From assembly GCA_019118585.1 (NCBI GenBank), contig DWYS01000058.1, positions 1-49,329 on the forward strand: a stretch of DNA of 49,329 nt, in the 5' to 3' direction. Below are positions 5,087 through 33,097 of the stretch, in pieces. Within the stretch, counting starts at the first letter, position 1; every line of letters starts with the position of its first letter. The stretch is from Candidatus Enterocloster faecavium. Its GTDB lineage: Bacteria > Bacillota > Clostridia > Lachnospirales > Lachnospiraceae. A program made the translations under genes and the position numbers. The notes under the pieces were generated by a model. That model saw nothing but the letters and a program-made list of their open reading frames with translations, searched no databases and was not told the origin of the DNA.

Positions 5087-5195
5087 GGCGGAGGCATCCT
5101 TCCCGGTATTCCCAATAGTTATAGGAGCTATGACTTGCTAGGGGCGGAAGGGACTCTGATAAGTATTTGCTTATATGTATAATCTGAAACCTAAT

Positions 5196-5224
5196 TAGAC
5201 GTTTTTCCTTACATAATTTATACT
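5196..5224 (+). promoter_or_regulatory. Candidate promoter for the SLC13 permease-esterase pair
   Basis: TAGACG, 17 bases, TATACT, about 65 bases before the permease ATG. A short inverted repeat TTATA-TG-TATAA lies 25 bases upstream near 5171-5182 and could be part of a LysR-type site. Confidence 0.5.
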
Positions 5225-5289
5225 ATTATTACAATTTAATCTTCCGGCCGGAAGCAGGAACCATCATTTTTAATAATAGGAGATTCATT

Positions 5290-6582
5290 ATGAATGTACA
5301 ATTTACCATCTGCATTATAATCTTTATCTTAATGATTTTGGGCTATATGCAGTCTAAGGTCTCTAAAACTGTAGTGGCTCTGACCGCTATGGTGGCCCTT
5401 GTCCTGACCGGCTGTCTGTCGGAGGAGGCGGCGCTGTCCGGATTCTCCAATTCCAATACCATTGTCATGGCAACCATGTTCATCGTATCCGAAGGACTCT
5501 CCAGAACCCAGGCGGTCCACAAGATATCCTCCATGGTAAACAAGATCAGCAATGGCTCTTTTACCAAGATCCTGATGGGCTATGTGGTAATCACCATGCT
5601 GCTGTCTCAGATTGCCGGCAGCTCTTCCGCTGCCTTCGCCATCATGTTCCCCATCGTCTGCGCTATGTGCGACAATATGGGCTTCTGCCGCTCCAAAATG
5701 CTGTTTGCCGTGGGCATGGTATCCATCAATACCTGCGCAATTCTTCCCATCGGAGGGAGCGCCGCCACCTTTTCCCAGTACAATGGTTTTCTGGAATCCT
5801 ACGGCGCTGCCGCTCAGTACCGTCTCGGATTCTGGGACCCCATGATTGCAAGACTGCCCAACCTGATTGCCATCTGTCTCTACTCTGCATTTCTGGCCCC
5901 CAAATTCAGTCCGGAACTGCCCAATGTAGACATTTCAGGCAAACAGAAAGGCAAGGAGCAGCAGGTTCTGGATCCATTCCGGGAATTTATGGGCTATGGA
6001 ACTTTCATTTTTGTAATCATCGGCCTTCTGCTTTCTGATACCCTGGGAGTTCCCTCCTGGATTTTCACCTTAATCGGAGCCCTGCTGCTGTGCGCCACCA
6101 AGGTTCTTTCCGCAAAAGATGCATATGCCGCTGCATCTCTGGGAGGAATCGTGATGATGTATGTCGGCGTTCTGGCAATGGGAAATGCCCTGACTGCTAC
6201 CGGTGCAGGCGAAGCCGTGGGAAATGCTGTAGCAAAGCTGGTAGGCAATACCAAGAACGGCTATGTGATCGGCCTGGTATTCTTTATAGCACCCTTTATT
6301 TTGACACAGTTCATGAACAACCGGGCGGTAAGCACCATCTTTGCCCCCATTTCCATCCTTACCTGCAATGCCATCGGATGTGATCCCATCGGCCCGCTTA
6401 TGCTGACGCTCTGCGGTTCCCTGGCTTCCTTTATGACTCCCATGGCTACTGCTACTGTAAATATGGTAATGGGATTGGCCGGATACAGCCAGAAGGACCT
6501 GATCAAAATGAGTATCCTTCCTTCCATCATTCTCATTATTGTAAATGTCCTGTGGATTATGACCATATATCCTGCATTTTAA
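5290..6582 (+). CDS. SLC13/DASS-type anion permease (ArsB/NhaD superfamily)
   Basis: A 430-residue integral membrane transporter with about ten or more hydrophobic segments. The second repeat carries the superfamily loop TQFMNNRAVSTIFAPI and the first has QIAGSSSAAFAIMFP at the equivalent place, as in Na+-coupled dicarboxylate and related carriers. The ribosome site AGGAG precedes ATG by seven bases. It is followed 18 bases later by a cytosolic esterase and then by a LysR regulator, so it probably imports the compound, likely an organic anion, that the esterase cleaves. Substrate cannot be read from sequence. A second member of the superfamily is at 30504-31826, but the two are only distantly alike. 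Confidence 0.85.
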   Translation: MNVQFTICIIIFILMILGYMQSKVSKTVVALTAMVALVLTGCLSEEAALSGFSNSNTIVMATMFIVSEGLSRTQAVHKISSMVNKISNGSFTKILMGYVVITMLLSQIAGSSSAAFAIMFPIVCAMCDNMGFCRSKMLFAVGMVSINTCAILPIGGSAATFSQYNGFLESYGAAAQYRLGFWDPMIARLPNLIAICLYSAFLAPKFSPELPNVDISGKQKGKEQQVLDPFREFMGYGTFIFVIIGLLLSDTLGVPSWIFTLIGALLLCATKVLSAKDAYAAASLGGIVMMYVGVLAMGNALTATGAGEAVGNAVAKLVGNTKNGYVIGLVFFIAPFILTQFMNNRAVSTIFAPISILTCNAIGCDPIGPLMLTLCGSLASFMTPMATATVNMVMGLAGYSQKDLIKMSILPSIILIIVNVLWIMTIYPAF

Positions 6583-6600
6583 TACGAGGAGGAGAGAAGA

Positions 6601-8334
6601 ATGAATCCATTTTGCTGGGCAGAGCTGCCCGAAAAACAGTCGGATGTTCCGGTCGATCTTCTAAATCCGGGAAAATGCCAGATCCACGGTGCCTTTTTCC
6701 TGAACTGTCCCGTGGGAGACAGCGTTCGGAAGCTCCTGATCTATATTCCTGAATCCTGGGGAAACAACGATGAAGTTTTAGTAATAGCTCCTCCTTCCTG
6801 TCTGCCGGCAGAAAAATTTCTCGCCGACAGCGGGCTGGTAGAATTTACCCGGCAGCGGGGCGTTCTGGCAGCCATTCTGGTTCGGGAGCCGCATAAAAGC
6901 ACAGAGGAAGAAGCCCATTTTATGAATACCGCCTACAAAAAGCTTCAGGGACGGGAATATTTTGTCGCCATGCAGGACTGCTTTTACGCCATGGGCGTTG
7001 GTGATGGAAGCCCGGTAGCGCTGAAAGCCATGCTGTCGATGGGCAACGACTGGTCCGGCGCAGCTCTTCTGGGAGGAATACGGGATGTAACGGAAGAACC
7101 CGTCATCGATGAGGCTGATAAAGGGATTCAGACCGAAGAAATGTTCATTTCCGGGAAAAAATCCCAGCTTCCCATATGGCTGCTGGAGGAAAAGGAAACG
7201 CCGGATTTAGTCCGCGTAAGGGATTACTGGATACGTGAAAACCAGGATGTGACTGAACCGGTATTTGATCCCAGGGGAACCGCTGTCTATCTGCCCAAAC
7301 CCATTTCCCCCACCTCCTCCCTCAACGATGCCCCTATCGCTCAGGTCCGGGTTACCCTGGGCTTTCAGCCGGAAAGCCTTTCTGCCTCCCTGCTGAATCA
7401 AGTCTGGGACTATACAGGCGCTGCCAGACGCCATCGTTCTTATCATAAGAAGGTACTCCGCTACTTCCGAAATCCGGATATACCGGAAAACGGCGCCACC
7501 TATCACACCATGGTTGTGGACGGCATGAAGCGGGAATGGTACGAATACGTTCCGCGGCGTTTCCGGCAGTCAGACACTCCGCTCCCCCTGGTAGTGGCAT
7601 TTCACGGCCGCGGCGGCAATGGAAAGAGCTTTTTCGACATCTCTGACCTGAGCGTTGCTGCGGAGGAGAGGGGATTCATCGCTTTATTTCCCACGGCGGA
7701 TATTTACCAGATTCGGCCCGACGGGTACCGCGGCGTCCGGCTGTGGAACGGAAATTATAAGGGAGCCGACCTGGACAGCATGCCATTTGTCCGGGCAATG
7801 ATAGAGGATGTGAAAGGACGTCTTCCGGTGGATGAAAGCCGGATTTATGCCTGCGGTCAGTCCTCCGGCGGATATATGGCAGTCTGCTGTGCATTCCAGG
7901 CCCCGGATCTCTTCGCCGCTGTGGCTCCTTGGTCCGGTTTTGTATATCCGGGAATGAAAAGTATGCACCTTCCCCTTGGAGCTCCTCAGCAGCTGAAGGA
8001 TGTGCCGGTCTATCTGCTTATCGGAAAACAAGATACGCACTTTGGCGCTCCCTCCATCGACCTGTCCCATCCCTCCAGCACACTGGAAGAGTTTCTCCTC
8101 TTTGTGTTAGACAGCTACGGTTTATCCAGGGAATATGATTCCTATACCTGTTATCCTATCGATTACTATGTATGGAAACGAAACGGCATCCCCATGGTCA
8201 CTCTGGGCTTGATCGATGATATGCCCCACGCCAACTATGCCGAAGAGAGCCGGATTTCCTATGATGATTTTATGTGTCGTTTTTCCATGGACCCGGACGG
8301 CAGCCGCCGCTATATGGGAAAAAAAATAAAATAA
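6601..8334 (+). CDS. Large alpha/beta-hydrolase esterase (PHB-depolymerase/LpqC-like C-terminal domain)
   Basis: A 577-residue protein without signal peptide. From about residue 330 on it has a polyhydroxybutyrate-depolymerase/feruloyl-esterase-like fold: oxyanion loop AFHGRGGNG, nucleophile elbow GQSSGG (Ser near 421), likely acid in IGKQDTHFG and likely His in DDMPHANY. The first 300 residues form a separate region; it contains KAMLSMGNDWSGAALLGG, which may be a worn hydrolase-like domain. A strong AGGAGGAG site lies ahead of the ATG. It is co-transcribed with the permease. Inference: intracellular hydrolysis of an ester taken up by that permease. Deacetylase or peptidase activity on other conjugates is possible. 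Confidence 0.75.
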   Translation: MNPFCWAELPEKQSDVPVDLLNPGKCQIHGAFFLNCPVGDSVRKLLIYIPESWGNNDEVLVIAPPSCLPAEKFLADSGLVEFTRQRGVLAAILVREPHKSTEEEAHFMNTAYKKLQGREYFVAMQDCFYAMGVGDGSPVALKAMLSMGNDWSGAALLGGIRDVTEEPVIDEADKGIQTEEMFISGKKSQLPIWLLEEKETPDLVRVRDYWIRENQDVTEPVFDPRGTAVYLPKPISPTSSLNDAPIAQVRVTLGFQPESLSASLLNQVWDYTGAARRHRSYHKKVLRYFRNPDIPENGATYHTMVVDGMKREWYEYVPRRFRQSDTPLPLVVAFHGRGGNGKSFFDISDLSVAAEERGFIALFPTADIYQIRPDGYRGVRLWNGNYKGADLDSMPFVRAMIEDVKGRLPVDESRIYACGQSSGGYMAVCCAFQAPDLFAAVAPWSGFVYPGMKSMHLPLGAPQQLKDVPVYLLIGKQDTHFGAPSIDLSHPSSTLEEFLLFVLDSYGLSREYDSYTCYPIDYYVWKRNGIPMVTLGLIDDMPHANYAEESRISYDDFMCRFSMDPDGSRRYMGKKIK

Positions 8335-8345
8335 GGACTGCCTTG

Positions 8346-8373
8346 AAAAGATCTGGCCACAGTCAGGTCTTTT
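8346..8373 (+). terminator. Terminator after the esterase gene
   Basis: AAAAGATCTG and CAGGTCTTTT pair (one G-T) around an 8-base loop right after the esterase stop and before the LysR gene, with flanking A and T runs. Confidence 0.7.
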
Positions 8374-8402
8374 CTGCTATAATCAGAAGCGGGGGGAAGC
8401 TT

Positions 8403-9287
8403 ATGAAAATATCCGATTTGGAGTTGTTTCTGAAAATTGTCCAGGAGGGCAGTCTGAACAAAACAGCTGAAAAAAATTTTATAACAGAAGCGGCTGTCAG
8501 CCAGCAGTTAAGAAAGATCGAGGAGGAAGCCGGCTGCGCCCTCTTCTACCGCCGGAAAGGCAGGCGGCTGGAATTAACTGACAAGGGCACCTCTTTTCTG
8601 CAGATGGCCCAGGACATTGTCCAGCGTTATTCTGCCTGGGAATCGCTGGCGCGGCAGAAAAACGCGGTGAAAATCGGCGTTTCCATCCGTCAGTCCCAAA
8701 CAGCCATCGAAGCTCTGCGCCAGGAAGCCGCAGATTTTTCTCCTTCCCGCTATATTTTTGTTGAAACTACGCACCAGGAGAGAGAAAATATGGTAGAATC
8801 AGGGGAGCTGGATCTTGCCTTTACCAGCCTTCCTCTGGACAGCAGGCGGCTGAAATATGCGGTAGTAAACCGTTTCCCCATGGGAATCTATCTGAAAAAA
8901 GGCCATCCCATGGAGAAAAGAGCCTTCCGCAAAGAGGGAATCCGTTACCCTCTTCTCTCCCCTGGGATTTTGAAGGAGGAATCGTTTCTTCTTCCCGGAG
9001 AGTCTATGCCCCACCAGCATACTCTGGCGCTGGCAATTTTTAAAAAGTACCATATCGAGCCCAACATTTCCGGAACCTTCCAGTCCCTCTCCTACGGAGC
9101 CATGATGGCGGAAGGAGGAGTCTCCAGCTCCGTTTCCGTTGTGCTGCCGGAAAATGACAGCCGTTTTTATCTCATTGACGGCTGCGGTATTTTCTACGAA
9201 ATGGCTGTGGCCTATCAGGCCGTCCGGGAGCGGGATCCGGAAATTACAGAGATTATCAAAAGCTTCCGGAGGTATTTTCTTTCATAA
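8403..9287 (+). CDS. LysR family transcriptional regulator
   Basis: A 294-residue LysR protein. The N-terminal winged helix is complete (LELFLKIVQEGSLNKTAEKNFITEAAVSQQLRKIEEEAG), followed by the effector-binding domain (KIGVSIRQSQTAIEAL). I start at the ATG at 8403, preceded by GGGGGG; the track's longer ORF runs back into the esterase. It follows the permease-esterase pair in the same direction after a terminator, so it most likely controls those genes in response to the substrate. The recognition helix TEAAVSQQLRKIEEE carries Thr-Glu where most members have Ser-Gln-Pro. Confidence 0.9.
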   Translation: MKISDLELFLKIVQEGSLNKTAEKNFITEAAVSQQLRKIEEEAGCALFYRRKGRRLELTDKGTSFLQMAQDIVQRYSAWESLARQKNAVKIGVSIRQSQTAIEALRQEAADFSPSRYIFVETTHQERENMVESGELDLAFTSLPLDSRRLKYAVVNRFPMGIYLKKGHPMEKRAFRKEGIRYPLLSPGILKEESFLLPGESMPHQHTLALAIFKKYHIEPNISGTFQSLSYGAMMAEGGVSSSVSVVLPENDSRFYLIDGCGIFYEMAVAYQAVRERDPEITEIIKSFRRYFLS

Positions 9288-27153: not shown

Positions 27154-28023
27154 ATGAACACCACTCAGCTGGAATGTTTCGTTACAGTGGCGGAATGCCT
27201 GAATTTTTCAAAAGCGGCAGATATCTTAAAGCTGACCCAGCCGGCGGTCAGCCATCAGATCCGTTCCCTTGAGGAAGAGCTGGAGGTCAAGCTCTTCCAC
27301 CGGACCAGCAAGAATGTTTCCCTGACCCAGGAAGGCCTTCTCTTTCTGGCCGATGCCCATCTGATCCTGAAAACAGCCCTGTCCGCCAAGCGGCGGCTGG
27401 AAGACCACACGCCGATCATCCCCTTTGAACTCGGCTGCCACAACCATCTGGAAATGAATCTGCTGCCCCCCGTTCTGAAGATCCTCTCCCAGAACTTTCC
27501 CCTGCTCCGCCCCACCATCCATCTGGTCCCCTTCCCCTCTCTTCTGGATATGGTGGAAAACAGCCAGCTTAACGCTGCTCTAGGCATAAAAGAAGAGCAG
27601 AACAAGTCCTCTCTGTTTTTCAAGGATCTTGTTTCTGCTCCGATTTGCTGTATCTGTTCGCCCGACTATCCTCTGGCCAAGGCGGAAACCCTGACCAAGC
27701 GGCAGCTGTCCGGCACTTTAATCGCCTGCTCTCCACGCCACATTCCCGATTCTGTTTTTGCCGTACAGAACAGCATTCTGTTGAATCTGCCTCCTGAACA
27801 GCGCTTCCTGACCGGGAGCCTGGAAAGCGCCCTGACCCTGGCCAAGGCCGGACTGGGCTATATTCTGTATCCTCAGATTCCCGGCACCCAGGAACCGGGC
27901 CTGCGCTCCATTCCGGTCACCACCCTGCCGGCAGTTTCCTTTGGCGTGTACTGCTCCTCTTCTTTGGACCATCCTGTTTTAAAGACCTTTCTCAGACTCA
28001 TGGGGCAGACCTTTTCTTCTTGA
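27154..28023 (+). CDS. LysR family transcriptional regulator
   Basis: A 289-residue LysR protein (FVTVAECLNFSKAADILKLTQPAVSHQIRSLEEELEVKLFHR). GGAGG lies eight bases before the ATG. The effector domain begins at PFELGCHNHLEMNLLPPVL. Its 3' end overlaps the end of the convergent NhaC gene by 45 bases. It lies at the distal end of the SLC13-C45-NhaC operon, so it may regulate it together with the LysR at 32153, or regulate the MarR-exporter genes on its other side. Confidence 0.92.
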   Translation: MNTTQLECFVTVAECLNFSKAADILKLTQPAVSHQIRSLEEELEVKLFHRTSKNVSLTQEGLLFLADAHLILKTALSAKRRLEDHTPIIPFELGCHNHLEMNLLPPVLKILSQNFPLLRPTIHLVPFPSLLDMVENSQLNAALGIKEEQNKSSLFFKDLVSAPICCICSPDYPLAKAETLTKRQLSGTLIACSPRHIPDSVFAVQNSILLNLPPEQRFLTGSLESALTLAKAGLGYILYPQIPGTQEPGLRSIPVTTLPAVSFGVYCSSSLDHPVLKTFLRLMGQTFSS

Positions 28024-29391
28024 TACTGCTGCCAGAATGGTCAGTACCGGCAAAATCAGGTTATAGAAGGCATAGGGAGCGTAGGCGAAGGGCGAGATGC
28101 CAAGTACCCCGGTAATAAAGACCCCGCAGGTATTCCAGGGAATCAGGGAGGAAGTGGTAGTTCCCGCCGCAGACGCCGTATAGGCCAGCTCTTTTCGTGG
28201 AATCCCCCGCCTGTCGTAAGCGTCCAGGAACAATGCCCCCGGTATGGAGATGGAGATAAATTCCTCTGGCAGGCATACATTTACCAGAATACAGGAACCC
28301 ACTGTGGCGGCAATCAGTCCGCCAAAGCTTTTCACATGCTCCACAACCGGCCTCATCAGGGCCTCCATCTGACCCGTATGTTCCATGATTCCACTGAACA
28401 TCATAGCGCATAGAATCATGGATACGGAGTAAAGCATAGAATTAAATCCCCCTGCAGTCAGCAGGGTATCCAACAGTTCCACTCCGGTACTGCTCACATA
28501 ACCGTCCATGCAGATATCCAGGAGAGTTCCCATATCTGCCTCTCCGTGAAACATCCACTGAAGTGCCGCTGCCAGGATGGAGGCCACCAGACTGGGAATG
28601 GCCGGTACCCGGAGCAGCATCAGGACCACAAGCAGTACCAGCGGAAAGAAAGAAAAAGGCGTAACAGCAAAATGCTCTGCCAGAACCTGCTGCAGCTGCT
28701 CAATCTGGCTGTATACCTCTCCCCCGCCATGGTACTGCTGCCCGATGATAAAAAAGATAACGGCTGCTGCTCCAAGTGAAACCAACGGAAGAGCGATTTT
28801 GTACTTTACATTTTCAAAAATATCTACCTCTGTAATGGCGGAGGTCAGATTTGCAGTGTCCGACAAAGGGGAAATCTTATCCCCGACATAAGAGCCGGAT
28901 ACGATAGCTCCGGCGGCGATTGGCATGGGAATTCCCATAATCTGAGCCAGCCCTGCCATAGCCAGACCGATTGTACCGATGGTTCCCCAGGACCCCACCA
29001 GCATGGACAGCAGGGCACACAGGAACATAGCAGACGGCAGAAATAGCGCCGGAGAAATCAGATCCAAGCCATAATATACCATCGCCGGCACCACGCCGTC
29101 CAAAATCCATGTCCCTGTTAAGATACCGATCAGCAGCAGAATCGTCAGGGAGGACAGAGAACTGCTCATTCCCTTGACCATCCCTGCTTCCACCTCTTCC
29201 CAGGTATATCCGGAAATTAAGGCCATGGTCCCGGCCAGCACCGCCCCAAAAAGCATAGGAATATGGGGAGCCGAATCATAAACAACGACCCCCGCCAGCA
29301 TGACCGCCGCCAGGGCGGTCATGACAAACAGGGAACGAAGGAAGCCAACGGAGCCGGAAAACAGACGTTTTTTACAGCTCATATTGTTCAT
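27979..29391 (-). CDS. NhaC family Na+/H+ antiporter-like transporter
   Basis: About 470 residues with 10-12 membrane segments and the family motif GSYVGDKISPLSDTANLTSA in the middle. NhaC relatives exchange Na+ for protons, or malate for lactate (MleN-like). The track start lies deep in the upstream gene; ATG 29391 (MNNMSCKKRLF) lies 20 bases inside the end of the C45 gene and is the better choice, with translation probably coupled because no clear ribosome site is seen. Third gene of the SLC13-C45-NhaC operon. The C-terminal codons overlap the LysR gene on the other strand. Confidence 0.87.
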   Translation of the reverse strand: MNNMSCKKRLFSGSVGFLRSLFVMTALAAVMLAGVVVYDSAPHIPMLFGAVLAGTMALISGYTWEEVEAGMVKGMSSSLSSLTILLLIGILTGTWILDGVVPAMVYYGLDLISPALFLPSAMFLCALLSMLVGSWGTIGTIGLAMAGLAQIMGIPMPIAAGAIVSGSYVGDKISPLSDTANLTSAITEVDIFENVKYKIALPLVSLGAAAVIFFIIGQQYHGGGEVYSQIEQLQQVLAEHFAVTPFSFFPLVLLVVLMLLRVPAIPSLVASILAAALQWMFHGEADMGTLLDICMDGYVSSTGVELLDTLLTAGGFNSMLYSVSMILCAMMFSGIMEHTGQMEALMRPVVEHVKSFGGLIAATVGSCILVNVCLPEEFISISIPGALFLDAYDRRGIPRKELAYTASAAGTTTSSLIPWNTCGVFITGVLGISPFAYAPYAFYNLILPVLTILAAVSRRKGLPHESEKGL

Positions 29392-30442
29392 ATGAAGTCT
29401 CACAGGGATTTCCCCAGGCAATCCACGCATACCCCTCATCCACACAGAACAGCATAGAGGCGATGGTCTGAAGACTTTGGTCCCCTGCGTGGTTGCAGAT
29501 GGAGGCGGGATGGCCATGATGATCCTTCAGGCACTCTTTTATATAATCCTCTGTAATCTCTCCCTGCTTTTTCTGGAGAAGGTACTCCAGCCTCTGCCCT
29601 CTGAAATGGCGGGCATGATCCCGGTCCGCAGGAAGGAAACGGTCAATGTCCGGGGCAGCAGCCAGGTCATTTCCCTGGGTCAGAATACCTCTGGAAGGAT
29701 ACCTCTCAAAGTTTTCCACTGGTGTGGTCTCAAATACGAGGGCCTGATTTTCCGATGAAGCCACTACATAGTTAATGGAAACGCAGGGTTTAAACTCCAC
29801 CATCAGCTTTTTGACCTCCTCCATCCCTTTGGCCTGGAGGATTCTTCTTCTCATAAAGTTGGTGGGAACGGCCACCCCTCGTATGTCCTTGGTAGACAGC
29901 AGGGTGCTGCAGTTCAGAGAAAGTCCATAACTGTTCATGCCGTTGCGAATCAGCTGGGCCGGCTCGGAAAGGCCCACGATTTTTGTCCCATTTTCCTCAT
30001 CGATATGCAGTACATAGAGATTTTCACCGATGAACGGGGAGTTGTCCCAGTTCTGGCCGCCTATGACGGAATGATTTTGAGTCGCCTCCCGCAGGACGGT
30101 AAAGCAGGTACACTCATTGTGCTCAAAATTGTCCACTCCCTTTTTAAATTTCAGCAGCTCGTATCGGGTATTCAGGACCATCACTACCGCCAGCTCCACG
30201 CCGGCTCCCTCTGCGATGCCTTTCGCCTCTTCCATCAGCTCCGGCATATGCTCCTCCAGATAGGGGACATATTCCATCGCCATCTGTTTCGCCTCTTCCC
30301 AGGTATATCCCTTCCGCTCAAAGGATTTCCGATAGCCCTGGCATACCTTCTCAATCTCCTCCTTCACCTGGGAGCCATGCTGGCATCCCCGCTCAAAGGG
30401 GTCGGAGGACTTTACGTAAACTTCTTTTAATCTTCCATTCAT
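29372..30442 (-). CDS. C45 family autoproteolytic acyltransferase/hydrolase (penicillin acyltransferase-like)
   Basis: A 356-residue Ntn hydrolase of the acyl-CoA:6-aminopenicillanate acyltransferase family. The likely self-cleavage site is NECTCF; cleavage before the Cys (near residue 111) would free it as the N-terminal nucleophile. GGQNWD and GMNSYGLSLNCSTL match the downstream substrate-pocket strands. GAGAGGA precedes ATG 30442; a TTG at 30490 with a very good AAGGAG site would add 16 residues (see the mini-ORF). Bacterial members act as amide hydrolases or N-acyl transferases on acyl-amino acids and related amides. It lies between two ion-coupled transporters, suggesting uptake and cleavage of an N-acyl conjugate. 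No signal peptide is seen. Confidence 0.82.
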   Translation of the reverse strand: MNGRLKEVYVKSSDPFERGCQHGSQVKEEIEKVCQGYRKSFERKGYTWEEAKQMAMEYVPYLEEHMPELMEEAKGIAEGAGVELAVVMVLNTRYELLKFKKGVDNFEHNECTCFTVLREATQNHSVIGGQNWDNSPFIGENLYVLHIDEENGTKIVGLSEPAQLIRNGMNSYGLSLNCSTLLSTKDIRGVAVPTNFMRRRILQAKGMEEVKKLMVEFKPCVSINYVVASSENQALVFETTPVENFERYPSRGILTQGNDLAAAPDIDRFLPADRDHARHFRGQRLEYLLQKKQGEITEDYIKECLKDHHGHPASICNHAGDQSLQTIASMLFCVDEGYAWIAWGNPCETSYEQYEL

Positions 30443-30486
30443 GAATTTAAATCCTCTCTTTTCCTGTTTTTCGCTGCTGGTTTCAT
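30439..30486 (-). CDS. Possible 15-residue leader ORF coupled to the C45 gene
   Basis: ATG 30486 starts 15 codons (MKPAAKNRKREDLNS) and its TGA overlaps the C45 ATG as ATGA. AAGGAG lies nine bases before it. The same ribosome site could instead serve a TTG at 30490 that opens the longer C45 frame. Either way the strong site is used for something other than a simple start at 30442. Confidence 0.35.
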   Translation of the reverse strand: MKPAAKNRKREDLNS

Positions 30487-30503
30487 CCAAATCTTCTCCT
30501 TAT

Positions 30504-31826
30504 TTAGAAGAATGGGAATACCAGCGGCAGGATCACAATACAGCATATAAAGTTGATAATCAGCAACGGCCAACCGTATTTAAAGAAATCCTGGAACTTC
30601 AAATTCGTAAAAGGCATGATTAGCTGGTTGGTTCCAGATGCCATGGGAGTTAAATAAGAGCTGGTAGCTGCCATAGCGATTGCCATAACGATGGCCCTGG
30701 GGTCTGCGCCGATGTGTTCAGCCAAGGCAATACCTACTGGAGCCAGAACGCCTGCGCAAGCCATATTATTCATAAACTGGGTCATAACGGCGGTTCCCAA
30801 CCAGAGGATAGCGGTAATTACATACAGGTTGGTACTTCCGCCGATGGCATTCACAAAAATCTTGCTGAACACTTCGCCCAACGGCGTCTTGTCAATAATT
30901 GCGATAGCCAGGTTAATTCCTGCACAAAACAAGACCAGGGAAGAGCTCATGCTGGAAAGGAACTGCTTAGGCTTTGCCACCTTTAAGAAATACAGCACAA
31001 CCAGAATTGCATAACCCAAATAGTAGGGACTAAATGTTGGTAAAATTTCTCCTACAATTCCTATGCTGTCCAGTACCATTCCAATCAGGAAAACGATAAA
31101 GCCAACACAGACCATGTGCTGTTTGCGTTTCAGTTCCGGGCTAGCCGCAGTATCTACGTCCATTAATACGGTCGCATCTCCCGGAACCTTTTCCTCATAG
31201 GAAGGGCACATCTTGTTAAATACAATCAGATAAATACCTCCCAAAATCATCACTGGAACGCCCACCCAAGCAAAATCCAGCATACCAAAACCCTTGAGGC
31301 CGCTATCCAGTAAGGCTGTATTCGCATACACGTTGGATGTGGTTCCCACCAGCGTACAGGCTCCGCCTAATGTAGTGGCAAAAATAACAAACAGCAGCAT
31401 CTTGGAATAGCTGAATCCCGATCGTTTTGCGATGCCGTATACAACCGGCACAAGGGCCATAGCCACATGGTTATTAGCCAGGAAGAAAGAAAATGCGTTT
31501 CCGAATACGAACAGCACCAGCAGGAGCATCTTTTCTTCTTTAGCCCTATCTCCGCCCGCCACCTTATTGGCATATTTTACGGCGGTATTTCCGATGATAC
31601 TGTCCAGACCCGTTGCGGAGAACAACCCCATAAACATATTGATTACAAACATCAGCTGTAAGCCAGAACTTGCAAAGGGCTCCCTCACCTCAGAAGTGGT
31701 CATCACTCCCAAAAATACCATTACCGGAGCAACGGCTACATAGGTCAGCCAGTTAGGCAAACGGAAAGCCAGAATCAAGATAAACATCAAAATTCCGACA
31801 ATCGCCCCAAAAATCTCAAACGTCAT
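30504..31826 (-). CDS. SLC13/DASS-type permease
   Basis: A 440-residue transporter of the ArsB/NhaD superfamily with about 11 membrane segments. Repeat signatures are FFLANNHVAMALVPVV in the first half and TQFMNNMACAGVLAPVG in the second, plus SYLTPMASGTNQLIM near the end. GAGGAGG precedes the ATG. First gene of the operon with the C45 hydrolase and NhaC antiporter and divergent from a LysR gene. Inference: Na+-driven import of an organic anion or acyl conjugate, with NhaC restoring the gradient or exporting a product. Confidence 0.85.
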   Translation of the reverse strand: MTFEIFGAIVGILMFILILAFRLPNWLTYVAVAPVMVFLGVMTTSEVREPFASSGLQLMFVINMFMGLFSATGLDSIIGNTAVKYANKVAGGDRAKEEKMLLLVLFVFGNAFSFFLANNHVAMALVPVVYGIAKRSGFSYSKMLLFVIFATTLGGACTLVGTTSNVYANTALLDSGLKGFGMLDFAWVGVPVMILGGIYLIVFNKMCPSYEEKVPGDATVLMDVDTAASPELKRKQHMVCVGFIVFLIGMVLDSIGIVGEILPTFSPYYLGYAILVVLYFLKVAKPKQFLSSMSSSLVLFCAGINLAIAIIDKTPLGEVFSKIFVNAIGGSTNLYVITAILWLGTAVMTQFMNNMACAGVLAPVGIALAEHIGADPRAIVMAIAMAATSSYLTPMASGTNQLIMPFTNLKFQDFFKYGWPLLIINFICCIVILPLVFPFF

Positions 31827-31888
31827 ATGCTACCTCCTCATCTTCTCATCCCGCGCGCCGGCCGCGTTTGTAAATGTTTGATAATTTT

Positions 31889-31916
31889 ATTATAATTTTT
31901 TCCTCAAAATCGGCAA
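31889..31916 (-). promoter_or_regulatory. Promoter of the SLC13-C45-NhaC operon
   Basis: Minus strand TTGCCG, 16 bases, TATAAT. Confidence 0.6.
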
Positions 31917-32063
31917 ATACTCATATGATTAAATATTTATAAGCAGCTTCTTATGGGCTAAAATCCACGTTTTTGCGTTGTTTTTAAGGTATATAAGCGT
32001 TTTATTATGTCAAAATAGCTAAATTCCGATGAGACTTTTTGCTTTTCACCCGGCCCCTGCGGA

Positions 32064-32072
32064 TGTTATACT
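32064..32072 (+). promoter_or_regulatory. Extended -10 promoter of the LysR gene at 32153
   Basis: TGTTATACT is a TGn-extended -10; the -35 (TTTTCA/TTTCAC) is weak. Confidence 0.5.
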
Positions 32073-32085
32073 ATAAAAAATAAAT

Positions 32086-32112
32086 GCAGCCCTGGAATAT
32101 CTCCCGGGCTGC
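32086..32112 (+). repeat. Leader hairpin of the LysR gene at 32153
   Basis: GCAGCCC and GGGCTGC pair around a 13-base loop between the predicted start site and the ribosome site. No T-run follows, so it is not a plain terminator. Confidence 0.5.
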
Positions 32113-32152
32113 AGCCTGACACATTCTATATAATTGAGGGGAAGGATGCCAC

Positions 32153-33097
32153 ATGATAAACGACCGAAAAATGGACTATCTTCTGAAAATTGCTGAGACC
32201 CGCTCCATCACCAGCGCTGCCCGAGCACTCTATGTGTCCCAGCCGGCATTAAGCCAGTTCGTCTCCTCCCTGGAGAAGGAGTACGACACCAAAATTTTTG
32301 AATACGAAAGCGGAAAGCTGACCCCCACCTACACCGGGGAGCTGATCATTGAATCCTTTAAACAGCAGAAGCTGCTGGAGAGCAATCTGCAGAGAGCCTT
32401 AAACGACGCCCGCCAGTCCCGGTCCGGGCGCTTCTCCATAGGCATCTCCAATGGAAGAGCTCCTATGTTTCTCTCCATCGTCCTGCCGGATTTCAAGAAA
32501 GAATATCCCAACATCCAGCTGACCATCAATACCAAATCGGAAAACGGCTTTGAGAGCATGGTGGCGGCGGGAAACCTGGATATAGCCTTCGTTATGGACC
32601 GGGCCGATGTTCCGGCCAAAGTCAAAGAGGGGCTGATTTACGAACCCCTCTTTGACTACTATTGTCTTCTGGCGGCGCCGCCCACTCATCCAATCGCCCG
32701 GGAAGCGGAACGGATTCCCGACTGGAGGCTGCGGCCGCCGGTAAATTTAAATGATTTTAAAGATGAGCCCTTTATTCAGACCATCACCTCTGACCGGCAC
32801 AAGCACTGGGAGGAGGACATCTTAAAGCCCTACGACTTTCATCCCAAACAGACCATCCTGCTCACCGAGGAATCTGCCGTCTACAGCCTGGTACAGGCCG
32901 GCCTGGGCTTTGCACTGCTCCAGGACTATGTGGCCTTCTCCTACCGGAAAGGCGCCTTCTTCCGCCTGGACCGCGACAATTCCAAAGCCACATTGTGTAT
33001 CATCTACCGAAAAGGGTTCGTCCTGTCCAAAGCCATGCAGTATTTTATCGGCCTGGTAAAAGAGCATGCGAAAAAAGGGTCTTTCTTCCAGTTTTAA
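32153..33097 (+). CDS. LysR family transcriptional regulator
   Basis: A 314-residue LysR protein (LLKIAETRSITSAARALYVSQPALSQFVSSLEKEYDTKIFEY) with an effector domain from RFSIGISNGRAPMFLSIVL. GGGGAAGGA precedes the ATG. Divergent from the SLC13-C45-NhaC operon and therefore its most likely regulator. Its TAA overlaps the TAA of the convergent CPBP gene (shared TTAA at 33094-33097). Confidence 0.92.
   Translation: MINDRKMDYLLKIAETRSITSAARALYVSQPALSQFVSSLEKEYDTKIFEYESGKLTPTYTGELIIESFKQQKLLESNLQRALNDARQSRSGRFSIGISNGRAPMFLSIVLPDFKKEYPNIQLTINTKSENGFESMVAAGNLDIAFVMDRADVPAKVKEGLIYEPLFDYYCLLAAPPTHPIAREAERIPDWRLRPPVNLNDFKDEPFIQTITSDRHKHWEEDILKPYDFHPKQTILLTEESAVYSLVQAGLGFALLQDYVAFSYRKGAFFRLDRDNSKATLCIIYRKGFVLSKAMQYFIGLVKEHAKKGSFFQF

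Follow-up and report, generated by a model that had tools for sequence, protein, structure and literature searches.

What does a gene for a C45-family amidohydrolase contribute to a cell when it lies between the genes for two secondary carriers, with a LysR-type regulator gene on either side? This question is raised by a locus on a 49,329-nucleotide stretch of DNA (hereafter the window), contig C158 of the 2.84-Mb draft genome (G000) of an Enterocloster-like organism. The initial annotation had placed SLC13-like, C45 and NhaC-like genes between two LysR genes, referred to here as LysR2 and LysR1, and proposed import of an acyl conjugate, its cleavage within the cell and exchange of Na+ or product by NhaC. 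Our analysis agrees with it on the coordinates and the Pfam/NCBIfam families of all five genes (Table 1). We lean, by a modest degree, toward a reading in which the operon serves the LysR-controlled import of an anionic acyl conjugate, its intracellular hydrolysis by the C45 enzyme and the export of a product.

Table 1. Genes and candidate regulatory sites of the locus, in window coordinates.
Feature	Coordinates	Strand	Evidence or remark
LysR1 (HTH_1 + LysR_substrate)	27154..28023	+	profile match; role in the operon doubtful
NhaC-like carrier	27979..29391	-	PF03553 169.9 bits; TIGR00931 343.5 of 370 bits
C45-family Ntn amidohydrolase/acyltransferase proenzyme, 356 aa	29372..30442	-	NF040521 200 bits, cut-off 85
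Nucleophile Cys codon (first Cys of NECTCF)	30110..30112	-	aligned with IAT Cys103
DASS/CitMHS-type (SLC13-like) secondary carrier, 440 aa, proposed importer	30504..31826	-	PF03600, PF00939
Sigma-70-type promoter TTGCCG-16-TATAAT	31889..31916	-	consensus scan 10/12; aligned across six loci
Probable LysR box ATAAG-AAGCTG-CTTAT	31939..31954	-	60 nt upstream of TATAAT; centre ~-65 from predicted start site
Second, imperfect box copy ATAAGCGTTTTATTAT	31993..32008	+	similar copies in L006, L007
LysR2, divergent LysR-type regulator, probable operon regulator	32153..33097	+	PF03466 + PF00126

The genes had been described as locked together by overlaps. This is true of the C45 and NhaC-like genes, which overlap by 20 or 11 nt depending on whether the NhaC-like ATG is at 29391 or 29382, whereas 61 nt separate the SLC13-like and C45 genes. 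Neither junction had a predicted terminator-like site. The C45 gene starts at the ATG at 30442, which is preceded by a ribosome-binding-like sequence, GAGAGG. A start for the NhaC-like gene further upstream, at 29517, was rejected because homology to its orthologue begins only after ~57 residues, and the additional stretch falls within the C45 gene. At its other end the NhaC-like gene is convergent with LysR1, and the two overlap tail to tail by 45 nt.

The C45 protein exceeds the curated cut-offs of PF03417 (64.9 of 23.2 bits) and NF040521 (Table 1). An AlphaFold model of it, made with 11 sequences (pLDDT 82, pTM 0.87), matched the precursor of isopenicillin N acyltransferase (IAT, or acyl-CoA:6-APA acyltransferase; C45, PF03417; PDB 2x1c, 2x1d) over its full length, with a TM-score of 0.81 to 2x1c, and so has the Ntn-hydrolase fold; the next structural matches were acid ceramidase, NAAA and bile salt hydrolases. 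By profile and by model, then, the penicillin-acyltransferase-like character assigned to the protein is borne out. IAT cuts itself before Cys103 and both transfers and hydrolyzes (PMC2692852). The first Cys of the NECTCF site, which the initial annotation had pointed out, aligns with this nucleophile; it follows a pro-region of ~100-110 residues (~110 in the comparison with IAT). All 41 of 41 C45 relatives have this Cys, and equally invariant are Asp134, Arg200, Glu239 and Asn259 (numbered on the reference window:29372-30445:-, one more than counted from the ATG). The window protein differs from IAT in that the identity is only 23-24%, a Glu rather than a Gly precedes the Cys, and the gene lies in an operon with an anion carrier and a LysR gene and outside any penicillin biosynthesis context. 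The residue before the nucleophile is mostly Glu in the C45 clade of the window and Gly in several other clades. Autocleavage of the proenzyme is predicted to fall between this Glu and the Cys of NEC, and its modeled fold and aligned nucleophile are those expected of a self-processing Ntn-hydrolase. No signal peptide was apparent when the sequence was inspected by eye.

The proposed importer passes the Pfam cut-offs of PF03600 (CitMHS, 154.9 of 31.9 bits) and PF00939 (Na_sulph_symp, 37.4 of 27 bits) and is homologous over its whole length to CitMHS and to DASS/SLC13 carriers, with VcINDY (E 2e-9) and SLC13A5 (E 1e-5) as its relatives in the PDB. Unlike curated DASS members, it falls below the TIGR00785 cut-off (87.7 of 198.6 bits), and we name it DASS/CitMHS-like only. 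The second carrier resembles members of the NhaC/PF03553 superfamily, which also holds ArcD-type exchangers, in matching TIGR00931 over its whole length. It is far under the ArcD cut-off (319.8 of 650) and below that of the NhaC equivalog (343.5 of 370), for which reason it is called NhaC-like only. As both carriers score below curated NCBIfam thresholds, any direction of transport or ligand put forward for them is a guess. The earlier proposal of Na+ exchange by NhaC relies on a family name whose TIGR00931 cut-off the protein does not reach, and an antiporter of an organic product is equally possible.

The nearest relatives of the DASS-like carrier (48-50% identity; L010, L012, L075) have downstream genes for beta-lactamase-fold hydrolases that replace or accompany C45. 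In these three loci (L010 416-7065, L012 2034-8202, L075 6274-10104) the hydrolase that follows the carrier is conserved at 65-83% identity, and in the Solobacterium loci L010 and L012 it shares one cluster with a CitE-like gene and C45.

Close relatives of the C45 protein were found at nine loci. Five of these (L006, L007, L008, L009 and L014), which with the window make six loci, have a conserved core of a divergent LysR2 gene, a DASS gene and a C45 gene. The holders of this core are the window genome, a second Enterocloster species, Clostridium sp. MCC353, a Hungatella and two further clostridial genomes; L006 and G014 (the public MAG 'uncultured Enterocloster sp. BRZ_PI__bin16') are the same, as are L007 and G292, and each was counted once. 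Identity of the C45 protein to that of the window is 85% in L006 and 71-75% in L007, L008, L009 and L014, and the core proteins as a set are 69-92% identical across the six loci, so that the grouping is not due to chance. LysR2 is directly divergent from the DASS gene in L006, L007 and L009, whereas the two are separated by an inserted gene for a MATE exporter in L008 and L014 (the family scan covered L008). The core C45 proteins form one phylogenetic clade with a support of 1.0, Solobacterium members included; in Solobacterium-type genomes the C45 gene either has no DASS gene beside it (L011) or is separated from one by several genes (L010, L012). Members of the clade are rare. With a cut-off of E below 1e-60, 3 of 397 genomes of the family had a match, one of the two besides the window genome having a distant paralogue only, and among 399 genomes of the phylum only distant C45 members were found beyond the window genome. 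In Clostridium sp. MCC353 the DASS-C45 operon has in its vicinity what appears by eye to be a type I-C CRISPR-Cas operon (L081, G292:C75:60000-68000).

The NhaC-like and EamA genes are missing from four of the six core loci, which places the export step outside the conserved core, and the exporters at these loci differ (EamA, NhaC-like, MATE). The trio of SLC13, C45 and NhaC genes proposed as a unit is accordingly ruled out as a conserved cassette, as the NhaC-like gene occurs in two Enterocloster species only and in one of them EamA intervenes. A neighborhood search had been suggested to learn if the trio is found only here; that is nearly so for the trio (two species) but clearly false for the SLC13-C45 pair (six loci). 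Import of an acyl conjugate followed by intracellular cleavage is consistent with the conserved order of C45 and anion-carrier genes, whereas product exchange by NhaC is not part of the core.

LysR-type regulators usually have their recognition site near -65 of the target promoter. The LysR2 orthologues are 69-87% identical across the core loci, and upstream of the DASS gene in all six the motif ATAAG-N6/7-TTAT starts 60-61 nt before TATAAT, against the ~0.1-0.25 sites per locus expected from base composition. A T-N11-A type palindrome near -65 is thus kept with the gene pair at every core locus. This conservation of box and spacing at all six DASS promoters makes LysR2 the likely regulator, and we consider it probable on these sequence grounds that LysR2, not LysR1, regulates the operon. 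The window, L006 and L007 each have a second copy of the box at a similar spacing (54-58 nt), possibly for autoregulation of LysR2; in L008 and L014 another perfect palindrome precedes the inserted MATE gene. The Solobacterium-type loci L010-L013 gave no match to the box, and an extended scan for LysR boxes in 17 genomes returned background levels except at two DASS promoters.

An operon of the same plan is present elsewhere in the window (5159-9287, + strand), comprising genes for a CitMHS/DASS-type permease (5290-6582) and an alpha/beta esterase (6601-8334) and a LysR gene that extends to 9287. At 5159 it has the palindrome ATAAGTATTTGCTTAT, which lies 60 nt upstream of TATACT and so repeats the box and spacing of the DASS gene promoter, and this operon may share LysR2. 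Five paralogues of its permease (35-43% identity) are encoded in the window genome (C32, C62, C120, C146 and C154; L099-L103), and further loci in G014 (L104-L108) were grouped with them. Several adjoin enolase-superfamily (mandelate racemase-type) genes, as judged by eye, and one adjoins an esterase-like gene, which suggests an enlarged repertoire of operons for taking up sugar acids or conjugates.

The place of the NhaC-like gene in the operon is best judged from the second Enterocloster species (L006/G014), which has its only orthologue (81% identity); no other relative above 37% was found among 61 related genomes. In that species a gene for a 280-aa EamA exporter separates C45 from the NhaC-like gene, the gaps through EamA are ~25-30 nt and the NhaC-like gene has its own AGGAGG site. 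The window gene starts inside C45 and is without an AGGAGG site of its own, which, together with the EamA gene between the two in the sister species, suggests a deletion. The overlap is most likely a recent, species-specific junction produced by loss of EamA from the window lineage, although gain of EamA by the sister species is also conceivable; a tblastn search of the window junction gave no EamA remnant. A LysR1 orthologue (72%) is found in the same place only in L006/L065. It is feasible, if rather unlikely, that LysR2, DASS and C45 alone form the functional unit and that the NhaC-like gene, with LysR1, is an independent gene for ion homeostasis or for amino-acid/organic-acid exchange that is merely read through. 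The co-occurrence of NhaC-like and LysR1 orthologues in the two Enterocloster species only, with both missing at the four other core loci, and the promoter-like site of LysR1 itself would fit such an arrangement. However, the NhaC-like gene is tightly head-to-tail with C45 in both Enterocloster species, and this synteny has been kept despite divergence of the proteins to 72-81%.

To consider which conjugates might be involved, we turn to the other C45 genes; NF040521 had 33 matches in 11 of the 17 genomes of the genus (the families of neighboring genes were scanned for some members and assigned to others by similarity to a scanned one). A C45 gene of another, separately branching clade is directly paired with a DASS carrier gene (39-40% identity) in L055. 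C45 genes also adjoin citrate-type 2HCT carriers (L055, L061), an AspT-like exchanger (L045, L047, L048, L049), dipeptide ABC importers (L051, L053, L054, L059, L073, L074) and tartrate dehydrogenase (L044, L046, L052); L066 has C45 with EamA, amidases and an altronate-dehydratase-like gene, and EamA is immediately 3' of C45 in three contexts. Carrier genes are adjacent to 14 of 30 C45 genes and to 25 of 257 others, a comparison that is illustrative only, the carriers having been picked after inspection and the loci being related. What these neighborhoods share is a pairing of organic-anion or peptide uptake with hydrolysis. The recurrence of hydroxy-acid enzymes near C45 points to conjugates of hydroxy- or amino-polycarboxylic acids as substrates, which is a pointer and not proof.

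Two further arrangements of C45 genes were seen. In three species of the genus (G000:C126, L053 6945-9073; L054; L051) a tandem C45 pair directly follows a dipeptide ABC importer and is itself followed by a PrpF/4-oxalomesaconate-tautomerase-like gene; LeuB and IlvD genes beside one tandem pair were discarded as a clue to substrate, as they resemble standard genes of leucine/isoleucine biosynthesis. A conserved cluster in two further, more distant families of Bacillota (L111, 231-12493; L112) combines C45 with a TRAP importer, M20 and a nitrilase-type amidohydrolase, along with a nickel-pincer isomerase (group 22), GlcD and a DapA-like gene, and this cluster looks like a pathway for the degradation of a hydroxy-acid amide.

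In the import and hydrolysis pathway that we favor, LysR2 would sense the substrate or a product and activate the DASS-like gene from the box at ~-65. The DASS-like carrier, if it behaves as its family suggests, would use Na+ or H+ to import an organic anion bearing an acyl-amide bond or, with lower likelihood, an ester bond. The C45 precursor would cleave itself before the invariant Cys and then hydrolyze the conjugate in the cytoplasm, after which the acid part might be retained for catabolism, or the freed amine or amino acid exported or exchanged. The exit carrier would depend on lineage: the NhaC-like carrier in the window, EamA along with the NhaC-like carrier in the sister species, MATE in Hungatella-type loci and EamA in one Solobacterium locus. 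That the C45 enzyme is instead an esterase-like deconjugase of hydroxy-acid or aldarate esters appears improbable. Relatives of the carrier do adjoin genes for beta-lactamase-fold or alpha/beta hydrolases and HpcH/HpaI (CitE-like) proteins, and the second carrier and esterase operon (5290-8334) shares the palindrome and its spacing, but to our knowledge the C45/AAT enzymes characterized so far either hydrolyze amides or transfer acyl groups, and other C45 genes adjoin amidases, M20 and nitrilase-type amidohydrolases. There is similarly little to recommend an acyltransferase, or an enzyme of synthesis or resistance (e.g., to beta-lactams or other amide drugs) rather than catabolism, for although the closest solved C45 relative, isopenicillin N acyltransferase, transfers as well as hydrolyzes (PMC2692852), the operon has no acyl-CoA ligase or biosynthetic gene, C45 relatives occur in uptake and catabolic contexts, and a dedicated anion importer beside C45 would be unexpected for resistance.

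The operon is similar to LysR-regulated catabolic operons for an importer and an amidohydrolase in having a divergent LysR gene, a box near -65, the carrier gene first and the hydrolase gene second, and it differs from them in that the hydrolase is a C45 Ntn hydrolase and the carrier is of the DASS/CitMHS type. The literature searched yielded no description of a DASS-C45 or SLC13-C45-NhaC operon and no substrate assignment for the gut clostridial C45 enzymes of the genus. The general plan is thus a known one, and the combination of DASS and C45 is apparently rare and undescribed in that literature. We suggest, tentatively and as a decidedly less secure proposal than the pathway itself, that the C45 enzymes of gut Bacillota might together make up a broad and as yet undescribed group of deconjugases that act on anionic acyl conjugates (of hydroxy- or amino-polycarboxylic acids), every enzyme being paired with an importer and a regulator of its own. 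The window operon would be the DASS-fed version, with interchangeable exporters, and would act on a conjugate from the host or the diet that has yet to be recognized as a bacterial nutrient. In some gut clostridia C45 enzymes occur frequently, and the conserved importer, enzyme and LysR box offer a short path to the substrate. Should this substrate prove to be an acyl conjugate from the host or the diet, the operon would add a route of deconjugation beside that of the bile salt hydrolases, its kin in the wider fold.
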